DNA from: a virus
DNA: 46,110 nt
IMG/VR virus record: IMGVR_UViG_3300005471_000007
Span: 1 to 46,110 of that record
Reading direction: 5' to 3' (one strand)
Of this stretch, positions 5,462-35,505 are shown piece by piece. The notes beneath the pieces were generated by a model. The model was given only the letters and a program-made list of their open reading frames with translations, was not told where the DNA came from and did no database searches. Within the stretch, counting starts at the first letter, position 1. The number at the start of each line of letters is the position of its first letter. The translations under genes were made by a program, and so were the position numbers.

Positions 5462-5504
5462 TTGACAACGTAGTGCATACTGTGCTACAATTGCACTACG
5501 TTGT
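5462..5504 (+). promoter_or_regulatory. Promoter with overlapping palindromic operator
   Basis: TTGACA at 5462-5467 and TACAAT at 5486-5491 are 18 bp apart. A perfect 13-bp inverted repeat, ACAACGTAGTGCA (5465-5477) and its complement (5492-5504), brackets the -10 element. It immediately precedes a ribbon-helix-helix gene, so autorepression is likely. Confidence 0.8.
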
Positions 5505-5528
5505 ATTACATCACCAGGAGGAACATCT

Positions 5529-5681
5529 ATGAACCATCCCTCTCGTAAACCAAGCAGTATTCGTCTCAGTGCCGAAGCTAAACGATTGCGGGCTGCTCTT
5601 GCACAGAAACTTGGTGTTACCCAAACTGCTGTTATTGAACTAGCAATCCGTGAACTCGCTAAGAAGGAAGGCGTCCAATGA
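5529..5681 (+). CDS. Ribbon-helix-helix transcriptional regulator
   Basis: 50 residues, ATG 5529 with AGGAGG nine bases upstream. The reading SSIRLSAEAKRLRALAQ ... TQTAVIELAIRELAKK has the beta-strand then two-helix pattern of CopG/Arc-type dimers. The stop overlaps the endonuclease start (ATGA at 5678-5681), so the two are translationally coupled. The 13-bp palindrome over its own promoter is the obvious candidate operator. It is transcribed against the surrounding late operon. Confidence 0.8.
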   Translation: MNHPSRKPSSIRLSAEAKRLRAALAQKLGVTQTAVIELAIRELAKKEGVQ

Positions 5682-6169
5682 CTCCAGAAACTTTGGCTTA
5701 TACGGCTGGTTTGATTGATGGAGAAGGCAACATTGGCGTCCAGGGAATCAAGCCAGCAGGGCATCACAAACGTCCGAATCATTACCTGGTTGTGCGCATC
5801 AGCATGTGCGACCTGCCTATCATTGAATGGCTGCATGACACATTTGGTGGCTTCGTCACCACTCGCACTAACCACCCAAGCCGCCAGAACAACAATCGCC
5901 GCCCTCAATGGGCATGGGCTATTTACAGTTCCGATGCACAAATTTTCTTGGAGCAGGTACTTCCCTACCTTCAAGTAAAGCGACGACAAGCGGAGCTGGC
6001 TATTGAGTTTCAAACTTTTACCTCTGCTCATCCAATGCATTGGAAAAAGAACCGCACAGCAGAAATTGTGAACCGCAAAGATGAATATCGTCATCAGATC
6101 AGCCAACTGAACTTGAACCGTGGCGCTTTGGTAGAACTGCATCATGATTATCTTCATCCTTCTTTCTAG
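5678..6169 (+). CDS. LAGLIDADG homing endonuclease
   Basis: 163 residues with a single LAGLIDADG-type motif, AYTAGLIDGEGNIGV near residue 10, so it should act as a homodimer. Downstream VVRISMCDLPIIEWLHDTFGG and LPYLQVKRRQAELAIEF match the family's fold. These enzymes cut a specific DNA site and spread by repair. It is free-standing, not in an intron or intein: both neighbouring late genes are intact. Its stop TAG at 6167-6169 interlocks with the convergent stop at 6166-6168. Confidence 0.9.
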   Translation: MTPETLAYTAGLIDGEGNIGVQGIKPAGHHKRPNHYLVVRISMCDLPIIEWLHDTFGGFVTTRTNHPSRQNNNRRPQWAWAIYSSDAQIFLEQVLPYLQVKRRQAELAIEFQTFTSAHPMHWKKNRTAEIVNRKDEYRHQISQLNLNRGALVELHHDYLHPSF

Positions 6170-8004: not shown

Positions 8005-9333
8005 CTAGGCCATCTTCAGTACAGAGATCGCTTCAGGAAGCACGACCTTACCACCCACGCGCACGCGCGCGAGGTAGGCCACCTGGTTCTGAATGGCGAA
8101 CAGTTCTTTCAAGGTTTGGAAGGTCAGGCCGACCCTATCCACAATCTGGTAGCCTTGCCCGATATCGCCGAAGATCACAGGCAGCTGACCGGCGGTGTAG
8201 ACGTTCGCGCCTGTAGTTGGGTTAGGCATATCAGGCATTTCAACTATGGGCCTCCCGAAGAGGGTTTCCCGGAATTCGTCACCGAACATGGTCCAGAGTG
8301 GGCGGGTCGTGGTGTCGGCAAACAGCCGACACGCGCCTATGGTGGCGTTGCTCATAAGCCAGGTTGCGGTCGGTCGGTACCCTGATTTGCCAACGTGCAT
8401 GAGCGAGATGATATCGGTTGGCAGGATTTTATGGTTGGTACTGTCGGTACCGACCAATCCGTTCATGCCGCCAAAGGAAGCCTGCGCCGCGACCGTCAGG
8501 ATGCCTTCAGGACGCGCCACGCCGTTACCCAGGATGAATGCCGTGCCTTCCTTTTGGGCAAATTGACGGGTGAGACGCTTGAGGATATAGGCTTCCACGT
8601 CAAACACGCTATCCTCGAGGTTCTGCCGACTGAGTTTGAGGTAACCGTTGAGTTCGCGGGCAAACACCTCGATCATACCCAGGTTCGGATCAGGGGACGC
8701 CTGGAAGCCGGTCTGCTCATCCGACCAGAAGATGTTAGTGTCTGTGGTTCCCTCACTCGGGATCAGCAATTTCTCACCGCCGATGGTCTGCGTATCGGCT
8801 AAAGAGCGCAGGGGTGAAATCAAGAACAGCTTTTGGATAAACTTGTCACTTAAATCCGTTCCAGCAAAAAATCCTCCAAGATCCGCTGCAGCGCTGACCA
8901 TAACCTTCTGTTCGGGCGTAAACTGGTCGTAGTCCATGTGGTTGAAGGAGATGTACGAAAGTTCTTCCCTGGTAAGCGCGGTTGCATCGCCGCCTTTTCT
9001 CAGGAACTTCTCAATCGCTTTCGTAGCAGGGGGTTTGTAAGAGCCAGCAGTAGAGCCAGGATAGCCGCCCGCGACAGGGGGGCGCTGCATGGCAAGCATC
9101 TCTTCTTTATGCTGCAACACCAGCTTTTTGTATTCTTTAATCTCGCCGCTGATCTTCTCGTTGATCTTGTTCAGTTCAGCCCGGGCCTCGGCCGCGATGG
9201 GCCCGCCCTGGCTGATCTTCAGTTCGGTCTTGTCTTGCCGCTCCTCGATGGTTTTGACACGGTCGTCGAGGTGCTTGTTGAGCTTCTGAATCTCGTCCGT
9301 CAGCTCTTTGAGTTCTACAAAACTCGTTGTCAT
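8005..9333 (-). CDS. HK97-fold major capsid protein
   Basis: 442 residues from ATG 9333, preceded by GGAGG nine bases upstream; an ATG seven codons earlier would place that ribosome site inside the gene. Residues 1-90 are a Lys/Glu/Gln-rich coiled coil, the delta/scaffolding domain cut off by the protease. The body carries family features: KVMVSAAADLGGFFAGTDLS, LLIPSEGTTDTNIFWSDEQ, FAREL(N)GYLKLSRQNLEDS, GTAFILGNGVARPEGIL, LFGRPIVEMPDMP, VIFGDIGQGYQIVDR. A 280-base leader with three repeated hairpins precedes it. Confidence 0.95.
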   Translation of the reverse strand: MTTSFVELKELTDEIQKLNKHLDDRVKTIEERQDKTELKISQGGPIAAEARAELNKINEKISGEIKEYKKLVLQHKEEMLAMQRPPVAGGYPGSTAGSYKPPATKAIEKFLRKGGDATALTREELSYISFNHMDYDQFTPEQKVMVSAAADLGGFFAGTDLSDKFIQKLFLISPLRSLADTQTIGGEKLLIPSEGTTDTNIFWSDEQTGFQASPDPNLGMIEVFARELNGYLKLSRQNLEDSVFDVEAYILKRLTRQFAQKEGTAFILGNGVARPEGILTVAAQASFGGMNGLVGTDSTNHKILPTDIISLMHVGKSGYRPTATWLMSNATIGACRLFADTTTRPLWTMFGDEFRETLFGRPIVEMPDMPNPTTGANVYTAGQLPVIFGDIGQGYQIVDRVGLTFQTLKELFAIQNQVAYLARVRVGGKVVLPEAISVLKMA

Positions 9334-9382
9334 AAAAAATCTACCTCCGTTCATGGCTGAAATTTACGTTTCATCCACGCTC

Positions 9383-9516
9383 GCGGGGTAGATATACAGC
9401 GCCCACTGCGTTTATTCGGTTGTTATGTCACGAAGGGTAGTCTAAGCAGCGCCTTCGTTTGTATTCAATTGTGCCAGGGTCATTGTGTTAACGGGGTAGA
9501 TAAATCAGCGCCCGTT
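9383..9516 (-). ncRNA. Capsid-gene leader: three tandem look-alike hairpins
   Basis: The 300-bp gap 9334-9633 holds three hairpins on the capsid mRNA strand: 9516-9490, 9458-9430 and 9406-9383. Loops are CGCTGATTTATCTAC, CGCTGCTTAGACTAC and CGCTGTATATCTAC, i.e. CGCTG-N5/4-rich-CTAC. Stems differ but still pair: AACGGG/CCCGTT, ACGAAGG/CCTTCGT, GTGGG/CCCGC (the last with a G-U pair valid only in minus-strand RNA). Each is preceded by AATA. The last lies about 50 bases before the capsid ATG. No known family recognised; a regulatory or protein-binding leader is inferred. Confidence 0.72.
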
Positions 9517-9617
9517 GGTGTTATTGGCGGAAACCAGCCCCTCAGTACTTGGTGGTAGGCAAGGGACTAGCTCTAGAAAGGACCGTTTTTCTTATGCCAA
9601 AAAACCGACCTGTTAAT

Positions 9618-9626
9618 AGTATACCA
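9618..9626 (-). promoter_or_regulatory. Extended -10 promoter before capsid leader
   Basis: Minus strand TGG-TATACT (TATACT at 9623-9618). The TGn extension can replace a weak -35; no good -35 hexamer is seen 17 bp upstream. It starts just after the protease stop codon and would give a capsid leader of about 280 bases. Confidence 0.45.
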
Positions 9627-9633
9627 TACCGGA

Positions 9634-10803
9634 CTAGATACCCCGAAACGAGTTTTGTGCGTGTAGCACGTTGACCAGATCATCCAGCAGCGTGTGCATA
9701 TCCGCAGGAGGCGCTTCCGCGTTACCGTCCTGCTCATCTTGTTTCTGCTCAGGCGTCGGGTCGTTCTCAGAGGATGAATAGACGGGGTATCCTTGCAGGT
9801 CTGCCGCTCGTTGGGTCGCCGCCGACTTGAGCACTTCCTTGATAGCCTTCACATGCTCATGGATACCATCAGCTGCTTTGGTCAGTTTGGTGTGATTAGC
9901 CGCTGAGATCACCCGGCCCGCTTTAGCTTCTTTCGTCTCCGGATTATCATCGGCGCTCATATATAGCGGCATGGCGGTACTCTCATCGTCGTCAGGTTGC
10001 AGGTACTCGGTCATGTTTAGCGCGATCCCTTGCTGCACATACGCACGCACAGCTACGCCAAACTGCTCTAAAGCTGTATCGACATCCTCTGCTGGCCGAT
10101 CGCCAATTGCGAACGCCTGGGTCATGGCATTCCTGAACGGATACCAGAGATTCCAGAGGTCCGAAACCCAGTCCTGTTGTGTCACTTGCGCATAATCTGA
10201 CGCATAATCTTTGGTTGTGATCACAGCAGGCGATTCCTGCTTTATTTTACCTTTCATAAAAAAACTCCTCATACCGTTTTTTACGATGTTTACCTGGGAT
10301 AAGTCATTCATGGGGAAGACAACAGCGCTTCCCTCTTTTACTTCTACTTCCAGCAAATTGCGGATAGAGCGGCCTTCTTCTTTCACCCAATCAACTTGCT
10401 GCGCTATATACCCCATCGATTGCTTGGTGATCGTTCTGGCTTTGAAACTGGCGTAGAGTTCCCGGCCTATCTGAATTTCTTGCAAGAGCTTCACTTTGAT
10501 GTAGAGCCCTTTGTGATCCTCATCGGCATCGAAAATGCCACCTGGGACAAGAAGAGGATTATCATAGTTGTGATTCCAGAGATAAGGCCACAAGTAATCC
10601 AGGTCTTGTGCTGACTTGCGCGCATACGAGACTTTCAGCGTCTTCTGAAACGCGCCTTTCATCGTGCGATCATCGCCAAAATCGATGTTCCCAATATAGT
10701 TGAGGTAGCCCTCAACGATACCCTGTGCATCGTTAGTGGCTTTGATCTCGCCGCCCAGGATGGGGAAGTATTCGGTTTTGCGTTCGATCTTTGGTGTTCT
10801 CAT
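9634..10803 (-). CDS. Prohead maturation protease (HK97 family, S78-like)
   Basis: 389 residues. The N-terminal 190 residues form the protease: IVEGYLNYIGNIDFGDDRTMKGAF, catalytic His in LWNHNYDNPL, Ser in KARTITKQSMGY, then RNLLEVEVKEGSAVVFPMN. It cleaves the capsid delta domain inside the procapsid. The remaining 200 residues are an acidic Gln/Glu/Asp-rich extension, longer than usual, possibly an internal scaffold-like or cargo segment. ATG 10803 follows the small 10807-11031 gene with a one-base gap. Confidence 0.9.
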   Translation of the reverse strand: MRTPKIERKTEYFPILGGEIKATNDAQGIVEGYLNYIGNIDFGDDRTMKGAFQKTLKVSYARKSAQDLDYLWPYLWNHNYDNPLLVPGGIFDADEDHKGLYIKVKLLQEIQIGRELYASFKARTITKQSMGYIAQQVDWVKEEGRSIRNLLEVEVKEGSAVVFPMNDLSQVNIVKNGMRSFFMKGKIKQESPAVITTKDYASDYAQVTQQDWVSDLWNLWYPFRNAMTQAFAIGDRPAEDVDTALEQFGVAVRAYVQQGIALNMTEYLQPDDDESTAMPLYMSADDNPETKEAKAGRVISAANHTKLTKAADGIHEHVKAIKEVLKSAATQRAADLQGYPVYSSSENDPTPEQKQDEQDGNAEAPPADMHTLLDDLVNVLHAQNSFRGI

Positions 10804-10806
10804 AGC

Positions 10807-11031
10807 TCACCACATCCTTTGTTTCGTCTCATAGAGGCGATATGCTTTGGGTAAGGCATCCCTGACCAGCATCGCCGCCTGCGCCATCATGGCCGCTGTG
10901 ACAGACGCGCCCTCGGCTTCCTGCTCAAGTAATAACGCCAGTGCATAATCATAGCCTTTCGCGCTCACCTGGCTGCGCGAAAGGCCCAGACTCAGTAGGT
11001 TGGCGATATACTCTTCGACTTGTGTATTCAT
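10807..11031 (-). CDS. Small helical protein between portal and protease
   Basis: 74 residues, mostly alpha-helical (VEEYIANLLSLGLSRSQV, YALALLLEQEAEGAS, AAMMAQAAMLVRDAL). Start overlaps the portal-MuF stop by four bases (ATGA) so it is translated with the head genes. No homologue recognised; could be a head accessory protein. Confidence 0.6.
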   Translation of the reverse strand: MNTQVEEYIANLLSLGLSRSQVSAKGYDYALALLLEQEAEGASVTAAMMAQAAMLVRDALPKAYRLYETKQRMW

Positions 11032-13349
11032 CGCTTTGCCTTTAATAATGCTCTATACTGATCTCGCGGTACGGCTACTTGCGGTAACGACCTGGCTAAC
11101 CGCGTCAATGCTTTACTGATATCATCTTCCAGGCTACTGTCAGGCGCATTTTCGTAGTATTGCGTGCAGCGACAATTCACGATCTCGCCAGCGCTGGCCC
11201 CTAATGACGTATCGCCTGGAAACATCAACTGTGAGCCGCCAACCTCAAACGGTTCGTCCATGCCTACTGTTTGCCCGTCTGCTTCTCTATGGTCAGGCCG
11301 GGTATGACCGTCGTTCGTAGCCAGCCACACCTTATTCAGCGACAGGTCAGACGCTTTAGCTGCCTCCTGGCTACCATAGTTCGATGCTGCTACGACTTCT
11401 GTACTGACTATGGTCTTGATCCGTTCTTCGGTCTGGAATGCGTATAGATCATCGACCCTTTGTGAAAGCTGCGGGATGCTTTCTCCTGCCTCGACTCCAT
11501 CGGCCAGAGCGCTTTGGAGCAACGCGAGCGTATACTCATCGATCTGCTTGACCTTCGTGCCCGCCATCGACAAAAGATAGACCAGCACATCCGGTGAATA
11601 CAGGTTAAAATCAAGTGCAAGTTGTTTCTGCTCAAACGGCTTCTCTCCATATTTCAAGTCCTTTATGACGGATTCCCCGCTGTCTGTCCCGACATCTTGA
11701 TAAACACTCACAATCAAGTTTTTCAGCGTCCCTTGCTGCTCTAAGACGGTCAGAGCGTGTGCTGCGTTGGGGGCTGCATCTGAGATATCACCTCTACTCA
11801 CAGCCGCGGCAATCGTCTTATGTTCGTCCTTAAAGTAGTCTTGCAGCCTGCTCACGATCACCTTCTCCCATTTTATCCTTTGGCTCTCGACCGATTTCAT
11901 GTAGGCCGCTTTCTCATCGGCGGTCTGTAAGTCCAGCACTTTGATTTGCACAGTAGGAGGCAGCATTTTCTGAGGCGGCTTATTATCAGGAAGCGGTTGG
12001 TTATCATCCACCGGGTTATCCGGGTTATTATCATCCACCGGGGTAACGATCGTATGTGGTAGGAGTTGAGGCGGAGGTGACGGCGGATTAATCGTCTTGC
12101 CGGATAGCGCCTCGATGTACTCGTCCAGGTCTTCGATGTGAACCGGGATATTATTAATGATCACGAAGTCTTTCACTGGCAATGGCTTCTTGCCTTGTAT
12201 TTCGCGCGCTTCCAGGAAGGTCGCGGTACTGCCCGTGAATTCAGCCTGTGCTCTATCGCTATCCTGCGCTTTGGCCTCTTTGAGCTGGTCAGCGATCGTC
12301 TCTACATCATCTTTGTCGTAGCCCAAATACCCGCCATAGCGCGGGGTGAGCCACATGTTGAGCGAGTCCTCGAACATGTCCATGAGTGGAAACACTATGT
12401 CCGTGTAGAGGAACCTCTTTGCCGCATCCTGATTATCAAAAGTAGCGTCCGCAAGTCCAAGTAGGAAGGTTGGAAAGTTAAAGAAGATGCCAGCAATGTC
12501 GCGGTCGCTCTTCGTATCTGATTCGAGCCAATCCAACTCCATCGGGCTCATGCTCATGCTCTGCCACTTGACACCGCCATGCAAGATCGCCGTTTCGCCG
12601 GCATTGCGCGGCCCGGAGAATTTCTTGCGTATCTCATCTTTCAGACTCTTATATTCCTGATCGCCCAAGAGCGCATCAGTCACCCACGCGCCGCCTGGTC
12701 GCGCCATATTGTTCAGCAGACCCAGGTTCCACTTTTGCCCGGCTTTCTGTACGTCAATCAGCATGGCCGCCACCTCTACCGGTGACATGCCGTAGATATC
12801 ATCGTTACCTGCGAATAGTTTGTTGTGCATCACGAACGGGTCAGGATAGCGGCGCGGCGGTGTGAACGTGCCGAATTCATAATAGACCGGCCCATTCTCA
12901 TCGGCCTTGATCTTGGTCAAATCAGGGCGCAGGTTATACAACTCATCGAACTTGGACGCCGGGCGCATACTGGCATTGATGCCCAGGACATACGAGTTAC
13001 CAGTCAGGCAATAATAGGCGAGCATCGCTTCTCTGAACTGGCTACCCGAGATTTTAGGCGCAGGTGTATCCCATAGCGTCATCAGTTCGTCATTCTGCCC
13101 GGTGATCTCTTTTTGCTTGCTCTTGTCGGTATAATGCTTCCATTTGATACCGGCTCCGGCCCTGGCGATATGCCCAACTACACGGAAGACAGTTTTTGAG
13201 CGATAACCTTCCTGGATGTACGCTCGCATATTCCTCGGCATTGTAGCAGGTGTGCCGACGCCCTGATTTTGCACGACGACCGCGACGTTCGGGTTGTCCT
13301 TTTGCTGCGTGCTATGGCCGTAGCCTCTGTTTCTATTGCGTCTACTCAT
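11028..13349 (-). CDS. Portal protein fused to MuF-type minor head domain
   Basis: 773 residues from ATG 13349 (AGAGGTG site upstream; overlaps the preceding stop as ATGA). Residues about 1-400 are an HK97-type portal: KTVFRVVGHIARAGAG, LTGNSYVLGI, YEFGTFTPPRRYPDPFVMHNK, GMSPVEVAAMLIDVQ, DRDIAGIFFNFPTFLLGL. A Pro/Asp/Asn-rich linker (about 425-475) leads to a helical C-terminal part ending in a MuF domain: KTIVSTEVVAASNYGSQEAAK, KVWLATNDGHTRPDHREADG, GEIVNCRCTQYY. Portal and MuF are usually separate genes; the fusion is intact. It forms the packaging ring in the capsid vertex. Confidence 0.93.
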   Translation of the reverse strand: MSRRNRNRGYGHSTQQKDNPNVAVVVQNQGVGTPATMPRNMRAYIQEGYRSKTVFRVVGHIARAGAGIKWKHYTDKSKQKEITGQNDELMTLWDTPAPKISGSQFREAMLAYYCLTGNSYVLGINASMRPASKFDELYNLRPDLTKIKADENGPVYYEFGTFTPPRRYPDPFVMHNKLFAGNDDIYGMSPVEVAAMLIDVQKAGQKWNLGLLNNMARPGGAWVTDALLGDQEYKSLKDEIRKKFSGPRNAGETAILHGGVKWQSMSMSPMELDWLESDTKSDRDIAGIFFNFPTFLLGLADATFDNQDAAKRFLYTDIVFPLMDMFEDSLNMWLTPRYGGYLGYDKDDVETIADQLKEAKAQDSDRAQAEFTGSTATFLEAREIQGKKPLPVKDFVIINNIPVHIEDLDEYIEALSGKTINPPSPPPQLLPHTIVTPVDDNNPDNPVDDNQPLPDNKPPQKMLPPTVQIKVLDLQTADEKAAYMKSVESQRIKWEKVIVSRLQDYFKDEHKTIAAAVSRGDISDAAPNAAHALTVLEQQGTLKNLIVSVYQDVGTDSGESVIKDLKYGEKPFEQKQLALDFNLYSPDVLVYLLSMAGTKVKQIDEYTLALLQSALADGVEAGESIPQLSQRVDDLYAFQTEERIKTIVSTEVVAASNYGSQEAAKASDLSLNKVWLATNDGHTRPDHREADGQTVGMDEPFEVGGSQLMFPGDTSLGASAGEIVNCRCTQYYENAPDSSLEDDISKALTRLARSLPQVAVPRDQYRALLKAKR

Positions 13350-13552
13350 ATAGCCACCTCTACGACATTCCAGCAATCGGCTACGTCGGTAAGCAGTACA
13401 TCAAACACACGGGTGATATTCTCCGGCTGGTATTGATGCACGGAGACTCTGAAATGCGCCTCTGTGACTTCCCACGCCTTTGTCAGCGTGAAGAGCGTCT
13501 GCTGACGAACCAGGTAGCTCATCACTGCACTGACCGCTTCTATTAGCTTCAT
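13346..13552 (-). CDS. Small protein between TerL and portal
   Basis: 68 residues, MKLIEAVSAVMSYLVRQQ to NVVEVAI. Both ends overlap neighbours (ATGA with TerL stop at 13549-13552 and with portal start at 13346-13349), and GGAGGTGG precedes the ATG. No family recognised. Overlaps and ribosome site make it a real gene with moderate confidence. Confidence 0.6.
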   Translation of the reverse strand: MKLIEAVSAVMSYLVRQQTLFTLTKAWEVTEAHFRVSVHQYQPENITRVFDVLLTDVADCWNVVEVAI

Positions 13553-15216
13553 TCCCATCCACCTCCTTCGCCTTCGTGCTCTTGCGCCCATTCCCACGGA
13601 TTGATCAGCAGCCCGCCTTTGGTGAATACCTCCTGCTCTGCTGTTTTCGCCTCTTCCTCTGCTAGTTCAGCTTGCTCGGCTGTCAGCGCCTCGGCCTGGA
13701 TGATGTGCTCTATCGAAAGCGTGGTGTCGATCTCTTCTTCTTCGGCGTCCAGGTCCAGCAGACCTGGACGGCCATAGGTTGAAATGACAAGCGCCATCAT
13801 GGCGTGGCAATCCGGGTACTCATCGTGCGGCGCTTTGGGGAAGCTGAACAGTTCTTTCTCTGCTTCCTCGATGCCCTCCATGTTCTTGTTGTGATAGACC
13901 TTGCCGTTGCTATAGAGGATGGAGCCGGTGGTGGAACGCATGATCTTATCGGTCTTCGGTTGGAACGGCTTGATGGGCAAGCCTAGCGAGATGAGATACT
14001 GGATCATTGCCAGTTGATAGCCCACTTTCTCAACAGCGATGATGCTGTGCATAAAGCGTTGGAAGATGAGCGGTATCTGCTGCTGCTGCTCTGGAAAGTC
14101 CAGGTGCTCGTGGAGCGCGTGCAGCAAGAGCGCATCCTTATACGGCGTGATGGCCCACGTTTCCATCAAGAAGAAGTCGGCGGTGCTTTTCGTGGAGACG
14201 GCCAGGTCAATCACGGCCAGGTTCCAGCAATCCTTGATCGGCACGGTGACACGGCCTCGTGGTGTTTCAAGCAAGTAGGATTGTGTTTGTTGATCGACCG
14301 TGAACCAGCGTCGATCACGCTCTTTGTAGATGAAGCCGCCATAGGGGATCGGGCTTTGCTGGTATTGCGATGAGTAGTGCAGCGGGCCTAAGCCGCGTTT
14401 GAGCGTCTCTAACACCTCGCGTGGGAACTTTGCAGGCCAGAGCAGCTCGCCTTCTTGTGTGCGCACATCGTAATGGCCAAGCGAAGTGCTCTGAGCACGT
14501 GCAGGCTCGTATTCTTCCGGTAGGTCGACGTGCTCCCAGCCCTGCTTGAGAATATGCCCGATCAGATCGTCCTCGTCTAATCGTTGGCCAACGACAATCA
14601 TGGGCCCGTTCTCTTGGTCATTCAATCGGCTCATCCACGTTTTGCCGAACCACTCTTTTGTCGCTTCGATGTCGGCACGGCCAGCCATCGCGTTGTTGGG
14701 ATCGTCGATCAAGAGATGACTAGCGCGTTTGCCGGTGGCAGAACTGCGCACGGCCACGGACATGCAATAGCCGCGCCGGTTGTTCTGAAAGAAGATCTTG
14801 ACGTTCTGGCTCGTGGAGAGCTTGAAGAGATGCCCGTAGCGATCCTGGAACCATTCAGACTCAATCAGGTCACGCCGGTACTTATTGTCTCGCACAGCCA
14901 GGTCTAACGAGTGCGAGGCACATAACCACCTGCTATACGGGTCGTTGATCCAGCACCATACCGGGAAGAGCACCGAGACAAACGAGGACTTGGCGTGCCC
15001 TGGTGCAAGCGTGATGGCTAAGCGTTTGATGCGCCGTTCAAACACCGCTTGCAGGTGATCGCAAATCACGTCCAGGTGCCAGTTCCACAGCAGCGGTGTG
15101 CCCGGCTCAATCACAGGCCAGGCGGCTTTGGCGAAGTGCTTGAAGGTGAGAGCATAGCGCAAGGCTTGCTTCTTTTCATCGTCGGTCAGCGGCGCATTGA
15201 GGAGTGTCATCGCCAT
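13549..15216 (-). CDS. terL: Terminase large subunit
   Basis: 555 residues. ATPase and nuclease of the DNA-packaging motor. ATPase: Walker A-like LAPGHAKSSFVSV near residue 92, Walker B LLIDDPNN, coupling region MIVVGQRLDEDDL. C-terminal RNaseH-like nuclease starts at NLAVIDLAVSTKSTADFF, with the first catalytic Asp in VIDLA. Typical phage length. The ATG overlaps the small-subunit stop as TGATG. The extreme C-terminus is Glu-rich. Confidence 0.95.
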   Translation of the reverse strand: MAMTLLNAPLTDDEKKQALRYALTFKHFAKAAWPVIEPGTPLLWNWHLDVICDHLQAVFERRIKRLAITLAPGHAKSSFVSVLFPVWCWINDPYSRWLCASHSLDLAVRDNKYRRDLIESEWFQDRYGHLFKLSTSQNVKIFFQNNRRGYCMSVAVRSSATGKRASHLLIDDPNNAMAGRADIEATKEWFGKTWMSRLNDQENGPMIVVGQRLDEDDLIGHILKQGWEHVDLPEEYEPARAQSTSLGHYDVRTQEGELLWPAKFPREVLETLKRGLGPLHYSSQYQQSPIPYGGFIYKERDRRWFTVDQQTQSYLLETPRGRVTVPIKDCWNLAVIDLAVSTKSTADFFLMETWAITPYKDALLLHALHEHLDFPEQQQQIPLIFQRFMHSIIAVEKVGYQLAMIQYLISLGLPIKPFQPKTDKIMRSTTGSILYSNGKVYHNKNMEGIEEAEKELFSFPKAPHDEYPDCHAMMALVISTYGRPGLLDLDAEEEEIDTTLSIEHIIQAEALTAEQAELAEEEAKTAEQEVFTKGGLLINPWEWAQEHEGEGGGWE

Positions 15217-16671: not shown

Positions 16672-17262
16672 CTACTCGGCTGGAAACTCAGGCAAGAACG
16701 GATCAGGCTCGACCCATGTGCCATTGAGTTTTTCCACAGCTTCAGCGAGGCTCCTGCATAGTTCCCGGGTCTGCACATTGCTGAAGTATTTCAGGTGCTC
16801 GTTGATATTCGCCTGCTCGTCATCGATGATCAAGAGATCAGTTGCGCCATAGAGCGCCGCCAGCGTCTGCACCATACCTGCTTTCCAGACGGTTGTTTTC
16901 ACGTACTGAAATGCCGGGGCTTTCATGAAAACCTGGACATTGCCATCAAGTACATCATGTTCATAAAGCCATACTTCTGTAGCTTCTCGCATGGCTTCCG
17001 GGCGAGAAGTGAGATAGACAAGCTTATAGCCATGACCGCGAATAGCCACGAGAGACTCTACCACACCGTCGATTAGCGTATCCTTCGGCACCTGCGCCGG
17101 GTCGAACACCGCACGCCAGTACACGTTCGTCGCTTCCCGCTCATCATAATAGGGGTAGCCGCCCGCCTGCTTAATGTAGGCTTGTTTCACTTCCTCCGCC
17201 TCTGCGAAGCGAGCATCCACATTAGCAACCACGCCATCAAGGTCAATTATCGCTAGTTTCAA
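16672..17262 (-). CDS. HAD-superfamily phosphatase
   Basis: 196 residues. Motif I DLDGVVANVD at residue 7 (DxD nucleophile/acid), motif II in YLTSRPEAM, basic residue downstream in MKAPAFQYVKTTVWKAG, motif IV in DLLIIDDEQAN. This layout is that of phage HAD phosphatases and polynucleotide-kinase 3'-phosphatase domains; the substrate (nucleotide or DNA end) is not evident and there is no kinase P-loop. Start is TTG 17262 with AGGAG six bases upstream. Last gene of the early operon. Confidence 0.8.
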   Translation of the reverse strand: MKLAIIDLDGVVANVDARFAEAEEVKQAYIKQAGGYPYYDEREATNVYWRAVFDPAQVPKDTLIDGVVESLVAIRGHGYKLVYLTSRPEAMREATEVWLYEHDVLDGNVQVFMKAPAFQYVKTTVWKAGMVQTLAALYGATDLLIIDDEQANINEHLKYFSNVQTRELCRSLAEAVEKLNGTWVEPDPFLPEFPAE

Positions 17263-19785: not shown

Positions 19786-19811
19786 GGTATACTCCTAGTA
19801 TCTCTTCGGAT

Positions 19812-19854
19812 GCCGGTTCCTGTAGAACGTCGCCGGCACCCGATCCACCGCCTG
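19812..19854 (-). repeat. Repeated 5' leader element, copy 1
   Basis: 19812-19845 is identical to 20726-20759 (34 bases); with one mismatch the match extends to 43. It lies in the leader of the ArdC-like gene. On the mRNA strand GCCGG ... CCGGC and GTTC-TACAG-GAAC can pair. An upstream GCCTGGG hairpin is also shared. Confidence 0.8.
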
Positions 19855-19880
19855 AGCCAAAACCCAGGCGTTTTTCTTGA

Positions 19881-20699: not shown

Positions 20700-20725
20700 G
20701 ATATACTCCTTCTAGCTATTCGAGC

Positions 20726-20768
20726 GCCGGTTCCTGTAGAACGTCGCCGGCACCCGATCTACCGCCTG
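20726..20768 (-). repeat. Repeated 5' leader element, copy 2
   Basis: Leader of the DUF932 gene. Same 34-base core as 19812-19845, with the same pairing potential, preceded by GCCTGGG/CCCAGGC and followed by AGGAGTATAyC-ATG. The repeat includes the ribosome-site distance, suggesting shared post-transcriptional control. Confidence 0.8.
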
Positions 20769-20794
20769 GGTTTCTCATAGCCCAGGCTTTCTTA

Positions 20795-21235
20795 TTAAAT
20801 GCCCTGGTATGCCTGGGCTGCTTCCGTCTCCTGGGCCACATCCAGTGCAAGTTCGCAAAAGTGGTCGAACAGGTCTGTATCCGCCACCTGGATATCGAAG
20901 TGTACCGCAGCCTCTTCGGCCAACTCCGTACACATGACCGCGCCGCAGCTAAAATGCTGATCGACAATGCTGTGCATAAAAGCGGTGACCCCCTCGTCAG
21001 TAATCACTGCTTCCTGTGCCTCGGTTAGAGAGTTTGCAAATTCTCTATACGGATCAACAAAAACTGTATCCTCAGCGAGTTCCTTGAAATCTTTACCGCA
21101 GCCAGCACAGAAGTGATCGTAGGCGCTCACGACGAGCGACCCATGATGGTTTGTGCCAGCAGGTTTGCAATCTTCGCAATACAGGTTGATCGTTCCGTTT
21201 TTGGTCTGGTAGTAAATACCGATAGTTTCTGTCAT
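20795..21235 (-). CDS. Unknown protein with zinc-binding pairs
   Basis: 146 residues. LYCEDCKPAG and FCAGCGKDF give two CxxC pairs; a second half, FSCGAVMCTELAEEAAVHF, is helical and acidic. No family recognised. A GGGCGGG/CCCGCCC hairpin (about 21250-21271) lies in its leader. Confidence 0.55.
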   Translation of the reverse strand: MTETIGIYYQTKNGTINLYCEDCKPAGTNHHGSLVVSAYDHFCAGCGKDFKELAEDTVFVDPYREFANSLTEAQEAVITDEGVTAFMHSIVDQHFSCGAVMCTELAEEAAVHFDIQVADTDLFDHFCELALDVAQETEAAQAYQGI

Positions 21236-35265: not shown

Positions 35266-35505
35266 CTAGGCATGTTCTAGGACGAGAACTGCATGTTCAG
35301 GTGGTAAACCGTTGGCTTCCAACTCTTCCATACCGACGTTGACGATCTGGTGGCAGGTCGCACATTCGTAGCTATGGAACGTCGTCCCTGGCACATCGGG
35401 CAACTGCACAAGCTCACCGGTACAATTGCCGGGCGCTACCGCTTCTACTGCTGGCGCTTCGACAAAAGCCGCTTCCGAAACTGGGGTCGTAATATCTTCA
35501 GGCAT
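35266..35505 (-). CDS. Small zinc-type protein
   Basis: 79 residues, AAGGAGG before ATG. Acidic Ala/Pro N-terminus, then FHSYECATCHQIVNVG (CxxC with an upstream Cys). Unknown; ends the leftward group at the convergent repeat. Confidence 0.55.
   Translation of the reverse strand: MPEDITTPVSEAAFVEAPAVEAVAPGNCTGELVQLPDVPGTTFHSYECATCHQIVNVGMEELEANGLPPEHAVLVLEHA

Follow-up and report, generated by a model that had tools for sequence, protein, structure and literature searches.

Tandem bulged-C hairpins in the capsid leader of a phage clade: a conserved RNA element and putative ON switch for capsid synthesis

In tailed phages the different dosage of capsid protein, the most abundant phage product and needed in hundreds of copies, and of protease or portal protein, needed in far smaller numbers and encoded in the same operon, is usually ascribed to the strength of promoters and ribosome-binding sites. 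Could RNA structure contribute as well? The question is raised by IMGVR_UViG_3300005471_000007, a 46 kb soil phage record of 46,110 nucleotides that was analyzed over its full length and is referred to here as the window. Its minus strand carries a run of genes for the major capsid protein, the head maturation protease, a portal/Mu-F protein and the terminase, with a polynucleotide kinase/phosphatase-like protein (PHROG 415; 16672-17262, minus strand) encoded upstream of the terminase gene. The leader that separates protease from capsid is 300 nt long and contains three hairpins. The capsid gene starts at ATG 9333, on whose 5' side there are a Shine-Dalgarno (SD) sequence, GGAGG at 9348-9344, and then six U. 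Another in-frame ATG, the first one (9354), is positioned upstream of the SD and is not the start. No close prophage was found in GTDB genomes.

Table 1. Coordinates and properties of the features discussed. Positions refer to the window; embedded hairpins are from relatives.
Feature	Position	Strand	Remarks
Major capsid protein gene	8005..9333	-	PF05065 Phage_capsid; start from SD and relatives
Head maturation protease gene	9634..10803	-	PF04586; hairpins inside its 3' end in one sub-clade
Portal/Mu-F gene	11028-13376	-
Terminase gene	13549-15216	-
Extended -10 box TGGTATACT of the leader promoter	9618..9626	-	Direct reading; conserved in relatives
Window-specific insert of ~90 nt, promoter to H1	9527..9612	-	Absent from L123 (98% identical), leader comparison
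H1, bulged-C hairpin, upstream copy	9490-9516	-	AACGGG-CGCTGATTTATCTAC-CCCGTT; R2 31.6 bits
H2, bulged-C hairpin, upstream copy	9430-9458	-	ACGAAGG-CGCTGCTTAGACTAC-CCTTCGT; R2 27.9 bits
H3, bulged-C switching hairpin, segment 1:2	9383-9406	-	GTGGG-CGCTGTATATCTAC-CCCGC; R2 24.6 bits
Segment 2 AUCUACCCCG, 3' half of H3, SD-complementary	9384..9393	-	Duplex -18.2 kcal/mol; 1/500 shuffles as good
Spacer hairpin CGUGGaUGAAA...UUUCAgCCAUG within the OFF fold	9352..9379	-	Predicted fold
SD region CGGAGGUAGAU, partner of segment 2	9339..9349	-	SD core 9348-9344; in run leading into U6
Small CCCH zinc-ribbon-like protein	35266..35505	-	Homologues directly 3' of the capsid gene in ~20 relatives
Embedded hairpin of L148/L155			GATGA-C-GCGG TAT CCAC-TCATC
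Embedded hairpin of L233			GCTGA-C-GCTG GAATCT CTAC-TCAGC
Embedded hairpin of L234			GAAGA-C-GCGG ATGTTT CCAC-TCTTC

The initial annotation had described three hairpins sharing one loop in this leader. All three are present on the minus strand between 9383 and 9516, each copy with AATA on its 5' side, and the one T·G pair in the stem of H3 allows pairing in minus-strand RNA only, and the capsid mRNA has this same sense. The pattern GCGCTG-N3-9-CTAC occurs three times in the 46 kb, always in the capsid leader, against 0.83 occurrences expected. When a minimum stem length of 5 bp was required, shuffling the leader 400 times yielded 12 hairpins in total, with a maximum of one per shuffle compared with the three observed. 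A cleaner test than alignment counts of collected copies is provided by the covariance model R2, which was trained on relatives with the sequences of the window and of L123 excluded: it recovers H1, H2 and H3 with E-values of 8.5e-6, 7.8e-5 and 5.8e-4, the next match in the window being at 0.13. The window leader as a whole is no more stable than its shuffles (z -0.55). Inside the innermost G-C pair the loops read AUUUAU (H1), CUUAGA (H2) and UAUAU (H3), and in relatives they vary freely. A loose resemblance to leader repeats at 19.8 and 20.7 kb, which had been thought possibly fortuitous, is indeed coincidence, as these repeats form a separate duplicated leader in which the models give no match. 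Its copies (19786-19880 and 20700-20800, minus strand) consist of GCCTGGG..CCCAGGC followed by GGTAGATCGGGTGCCGGCGACGTTCTACAGGAACCGGC and sit before two genes, one of them with a DUF932 domain; a stretch near 35.24 kb, after the zinc-ribbon gene, is partly similar to them.

The proposal that the leader has a promoter of its own is supported: the extended -10 box TRTGNTATACTA is kept here and in relatives, about 20 of which have it 9-20 nt ahead of the first hairpin. A sigma-70 consensus scan of the window leader, however, returned no site, so the -35 element is not clear. Within the stretch searched the box is absent in L126, L132, L134 and L135, and in L132 and L134 the hairpins come right after the protease stop codon. 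The insert between promoter and H1 in the window carries a strong hairpin of its own.

How far does this element extend beyond a single phage? Searched with the capsid protein, viral contigs yielded about 37 close relatives, with L233 and L234 in addition. Around 25 related phages have one to four hairpin copies at a fixed position immediately 5' of the capsid start, in most cases preceded by an extended -10 promoter that belongs to the leader; homologues ahead of other capsid genes, on which the initial annotation had staked its reading, are thus found. The copies are 24-31 nt long and follow the same design with stems that differ among relatives. In an alignment of 35 copies the bulged C and a G-C pair are invariant, the outer stem is variable and the loop is free; following the invariant G-C come C·A or C-G (once A-U), then U·U, G-C or G·U, and then another pair. 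A variant with CC opposite A, in place of CGC opposite AC, is found in L128, L133, L137, L149 and L154. From the aligned copies RNAalifold, unguided, proposes the same hairpin fold. The covariation that had been noticed within one molecule is now seen across many phages, with changes on both sides in 9 of the 11 pairs, a count inflated for the outer stem because copies were gathered partly via outer-stem pairing and obtained with a search pattern that partly included the bulge and inner pairs. With a score of 0.425, covariation exceeds that of shuffled alignments (0.18) and of slid structures (at most 0.16); all sequences belong to one phage clade, mostly from soil metagenomes, and are hence non-independent.

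Across the whole records of 47 relatives, the only credible model matches are located ahead of capsid genes, with nothing credible elsewhere in these genomes, and distant capsid relatives have no motif near the capsid gene. An extra copy in L135 (~5480-5800) consists of the promoter box and a single bulged-C hairpin, followed by a small ORF; this ORF, inserted in the protease-capsid junction, encodes two CxxC pairs, and its C-terminus runs into the next hairpin. Searched as DNA against phage records, the leader gave no match. A scan of viral contigs with the pattern GGGCGCTG-N-CTACCCC yielded mostly isolated, GC-rich matches and a tandem array in L037 only, which is the same phage type as L123; one match, in L238, was rejected as chance coding sequence. 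That no named RNA family fits, as was remarked earlier, agrees with Rfam, which matches none at or above the gathering score and with a lax threshold gives as the leader's best match a chance one. Overall, there is a strong case for a conserved structured RNA element, previously unlisted, in the capsid mRNA leader.

The protease-capsid junction also looks like an insertion hot spot. In L126, L133, L136, L143, L153 and L157 it holds ORFs resembling HNH or GIY-YIG/NUMOD3 homing endonucleases, which were recognised by eye and sit upstream of the hairpin leader.

What could such an element do so close to a start codon? The notion of a structured RNA in the capsid mRNA has held up, yet the conserved part is more than the static loop originally described. 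What had been missed is a complementarity: the last hairpin has a 3' half that matches either the SD region or an attenuator segment. Within the window's leader, AUCUACCCCG (9393-9384) is predicted to form an OFF helix with CGG-A-GGUAGAU (9349-9339), with the spacer hairpin enclosed. The predicted pairing probability of H3 is 0.74 when it is folded alone with 10 nt downstream and 0.000 with the SD present; across leaders, the last hairpin alone ranges from 0.00 to 0.99, and adding the downstream partner brings this value to 0.000. Left unconstrained, 23 of 23 leaders adopt the OFF fold as their predicted ground state, with the last hairpin broken and the ribosome-binding site hidden, and in nearest-neighbour models that leave out proteins and ribosomes this fold is favoured by ~4 to 21 kcal/mol over the hairpin-enforced one. 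The pairing of the hairpin 3' half with its downstream partner is matched by 0-6 of 500 shuffles in 22 of the 23 leaders (21/500 in L142), and on average a leader's own partner beats those of other leaders (-20.2 vs ~-17 kcal/mol). These predictions are strong evidence that the folds around the ribosome-binding site of the capsid gene exclude each other.

The exclusive pairings come in two classes. In class I, to which the window belongs, the downstream partner of the last hairpin's 3' half is the capsid SD region itself. Class II leaders comprise five segments, in which 1:2 is the hairpin, 2:3 rivals 1:2, 3:4 rivals 2:3, and 4:5 is a terminator-like, GC-rich hairpin that contains the SD just ahead of the start codon and has a U tract behind it. 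For 11 of the 13 class II leaders the energies amount to -16 to -21 kcal/mol (3:4) and -14 to -29 kcal/mol (4:5); in the remaining two, L133 and L154, the segments were recognised by eye and not by script. On the capsid tree the classes are scattered and unclustered (7 and 9 changes, with the label of L126 provisional) and even the tree neighbours L143 and L144 differ in class, while the hairpin persists. Both platforms are predicted to share the same polarity: as long as the hairpin is kept, capsid synthesis would be ON. In class II the RNAfold equilibrium still favours 4:5 over 3:4 when the hairpin is enforced, so antitermination would need to be kinetic.

A further hint comes from one position of the inner stem. 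The last hairpin has C·A there in 18 of 18 cases, and in upstream copies the position is mostly paired (17/24; Fisher 2e-6, relatedness ignored). The weakening mismatch fits a conditional last hairpin accompanied by constitutive extra sites upstream; a second explanation is that the A is also needed for pairing with the SD.

Five relatives that make up one sub-clade (L148, L152, L155, L233 and L234) lack an intergenic leader. They had been set aside as element-free, an assignment rejected once the model located hairpins within the 3' end of their protease genes, ~58-112 nt before the capsid start. L148, L152, L155 and L233 carry a second, upstream embedded hairpin. Synonymous shuffling produced an equally long embedded hairpin in 1 to 62 of 2000 trials, and it reproduced the SD complementarity in 1 to 4 of 2000 for L148, L152, L155 and L234. 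In L233 the second hairpin is SD-complementary (8/2000 mononucleotide shuffles) and the first shows no such complementarity. With both features found inside a protease coding sequence, the combination of hairpin and anti-SD segment is, as far as sequence comparison tells, clade-wide, and it would have predated or survived the shift between intergenic and embedded positions.

How do these observations fit together? In riboswitches the aptamer persists and expression platforms can be swapped. The leader has this organisation as a mode of action, with a conserved aptamer-like part and variable, mutually exclusive platforms, and a conserved element combined with interchangeable outputs of the same polarity makes it look like a riboswitch or antiterminator leader. 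We therefore consider it probable that the leader acts as an ON switch of the major capsid gene in this manner, and hold with moderate confidence that the bound state is the ON state. The bulged-C hairpins would be the binding sites, or 'aptamer', and the last one would at the same time provide the 5' half of two exclusive folds. Without a bound factor, its 3' half would pair with the capsid SD region in class I, and in class II the terminator-like hairpin containing the SD would be released; either way the gene would be OFF. A factor acting in trans would stabilise and hold the last hairpin, with upstream copies adding further sites, so that the SD is freed (class I) or segment 3 becomes available to keep the terminator-like hairpin from forming (class II). 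Besides translation, transcription termination may thus be affected. Neither a leader peptide nor rRNA mimicry was indicated: short ATG frames are unconserved in place, length and sequence among leaders, and a comparison with rRNA (E. coli rrnB as stand-in) gave no match. As to the factor, a phage virion protein or a host factor common to the clade would fit best. More specifically, though only tentatively, an assembly component such as the portal, the protease or a capsid intermediate might bind the hairpins and lock the leader ON, which would couple capsid synthesis to head assembly.

The most serious competitor dispenses with any factor. The hairpin could be no more than a transient fold during transcription, or a spacer by which SD sequestration is postponed, and upstream translation or the young age of the RNA would open a window for capsid synthesis. 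Such a ligand-free coupling or kinetic timer would agree with an OFF fold that is the predicted ground state, and with the sub-clade whose hairpins, being part of translated protease sequence, would be unfolded by passing ribosomes. It does not account for an invariant bulged C and G-C pair amid variable stems and loops, nor for tandem copies that have no downstream competitor, nor for last hairpins that are predicted to be too weak to form on their own (pairing probabilities of 0.00 in L139 and 0.04 in L130). We regard it as possible but unlikely.

Should there be a factor, the small zinc-ribbon protein is one candidate, and autogenous control by this protein as an RNA-binding antiterminator was considered. 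Its family is found in this clade only, with the gene directly 3' of capsid in relatives and displaced beyond the endolysin gene in the window. It is also the sole window ORF shared by the larger contigs that have an intergenic leader yet missing from the leaderless sub-clade. This attractive co-occurrence was downgraded after hairpins had been found embedded in the supposedly leaderless relatives: these phages keep the hairpins without such a protein (the L148 contig, at 43.5 kb, is perhaps incomplete), and hence the protein is at best an optional partner. Searches of Pfam, PHROG, PDB and folds gave no assignment and no RNA-binding family match, and it may be a virion protein. The case for it as the trans-acting partner is weak, the corresponding control circuit is rather doubtful, and it is more economical to assume a virion protein or a host factor that all of these phages share.

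Control of the opposite sign, with the capsid or protease protein as a repressor bound to the hairpins, would agree with the restriction of the motif to capsid leaders, and in other phages coat proteins are known to repress their own synthesis. Holding the last hairpin, however, would free the SD in both platform classes, which makes negative autoregulation improbable. Even less can be said for a small-molecule riboswitch with a minimal 26-nt aptamer in tandem: the aptamer/platform logic and the swappable platforms would suit it, but conservation is limited to the bulged C and a few pairs with free terminal loops, there is no Rfam match, and a phage capsid gene would be an unusual target. Least probable of all is a put-like processive antiterminator, whose 5'-end hairpins would modify RNA polymerase directly to pass late-operon terminators. 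The tandem hairpins do begin ~10-20 nt past the -10 box and HK022 putL likewise forms two stem-loops just 3' of a promoter (PMC9378689), but this reading predicts neither the conserved SD complementarity nor embedded copies without a promoter, nor the L132 and L134 hairpins without a promoter box.

The favoured reading, a switch that is ON when bound, can also be set against known systems. HK022 put, with two stem-loops at the transcript start, acts on RNA polymerase alone and in early operons (PMC9378689); it shares tandem stem-loops near a promoter with the capsid leader and differs from its anti-SD logic, no SD-complementary segment being described for put. Parallels also exist in the two-hairpin antiterminators regulated by ANTAR proteins in the eut, nas and ami leaders, with hexanucleotide loops and A1/G4 (PMC3369931). 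There, too, small tandem hairpins occupy a 5' leader, the downstream one excludes a terminator, and binding, which is a proposal for the phage leader, keeps the hairpin and turns the genes ON. In the capsid leader the downstream hairpin can likewise pair alternatively with a downstream segment. Its hairpins, in contrast, lack A1/G4 hexaloops, their conservation resides in bulge and stem, they occur in one to four copies, and in many leaders the predicted target is the SD itself. No PF03861 (ANTAR) match was obtained in the window, and the control genomes likewise gave none. By analogy the leader may work like an ANTAR target, and because the hexaloop signature is missing it is not proposed as a member of that family.

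The RAT of BglG and SacY is a single 29-30 nt hairpin that overlaps a terminator and, stabilised by protein, excludes it. A hairpin that is held by a bound factor and shuts out a downstream terminator is what we propose here, whereas the capsid leaders have one to four tandem bulged-C hairpins of 24-31 nt together with an SD switch. The window-encoded proteins include no CAT_RBD (PF03123), for which controls were positive. In T4, RNA structure hides the ribosome-binding sites of the late genes soc, e, I-TevI and segB, and for the endonucleases the late promoter is positioned so that late transcripts cannot form the sequestering structure (PMC2988022). A phage structural gene with an RNA-hidden ribosome-binding site, soc, is thus on record; in about 20 of the leaders discussed here, by contrast, the -10 box lies 5' of all hairpins, so that a transcript from it would include the complete switch.

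No riboswitch or attenuator in a capsid leader emerged from the literature searches. An RNA switch placed exactly at the protease-capsid junction would, if true, make the timing or dosage of capsid synthesis RNA-regulated, and the bulged-C hairpins would represent a new regulatory RNA family, found only through the comparison of uncultivated phages.
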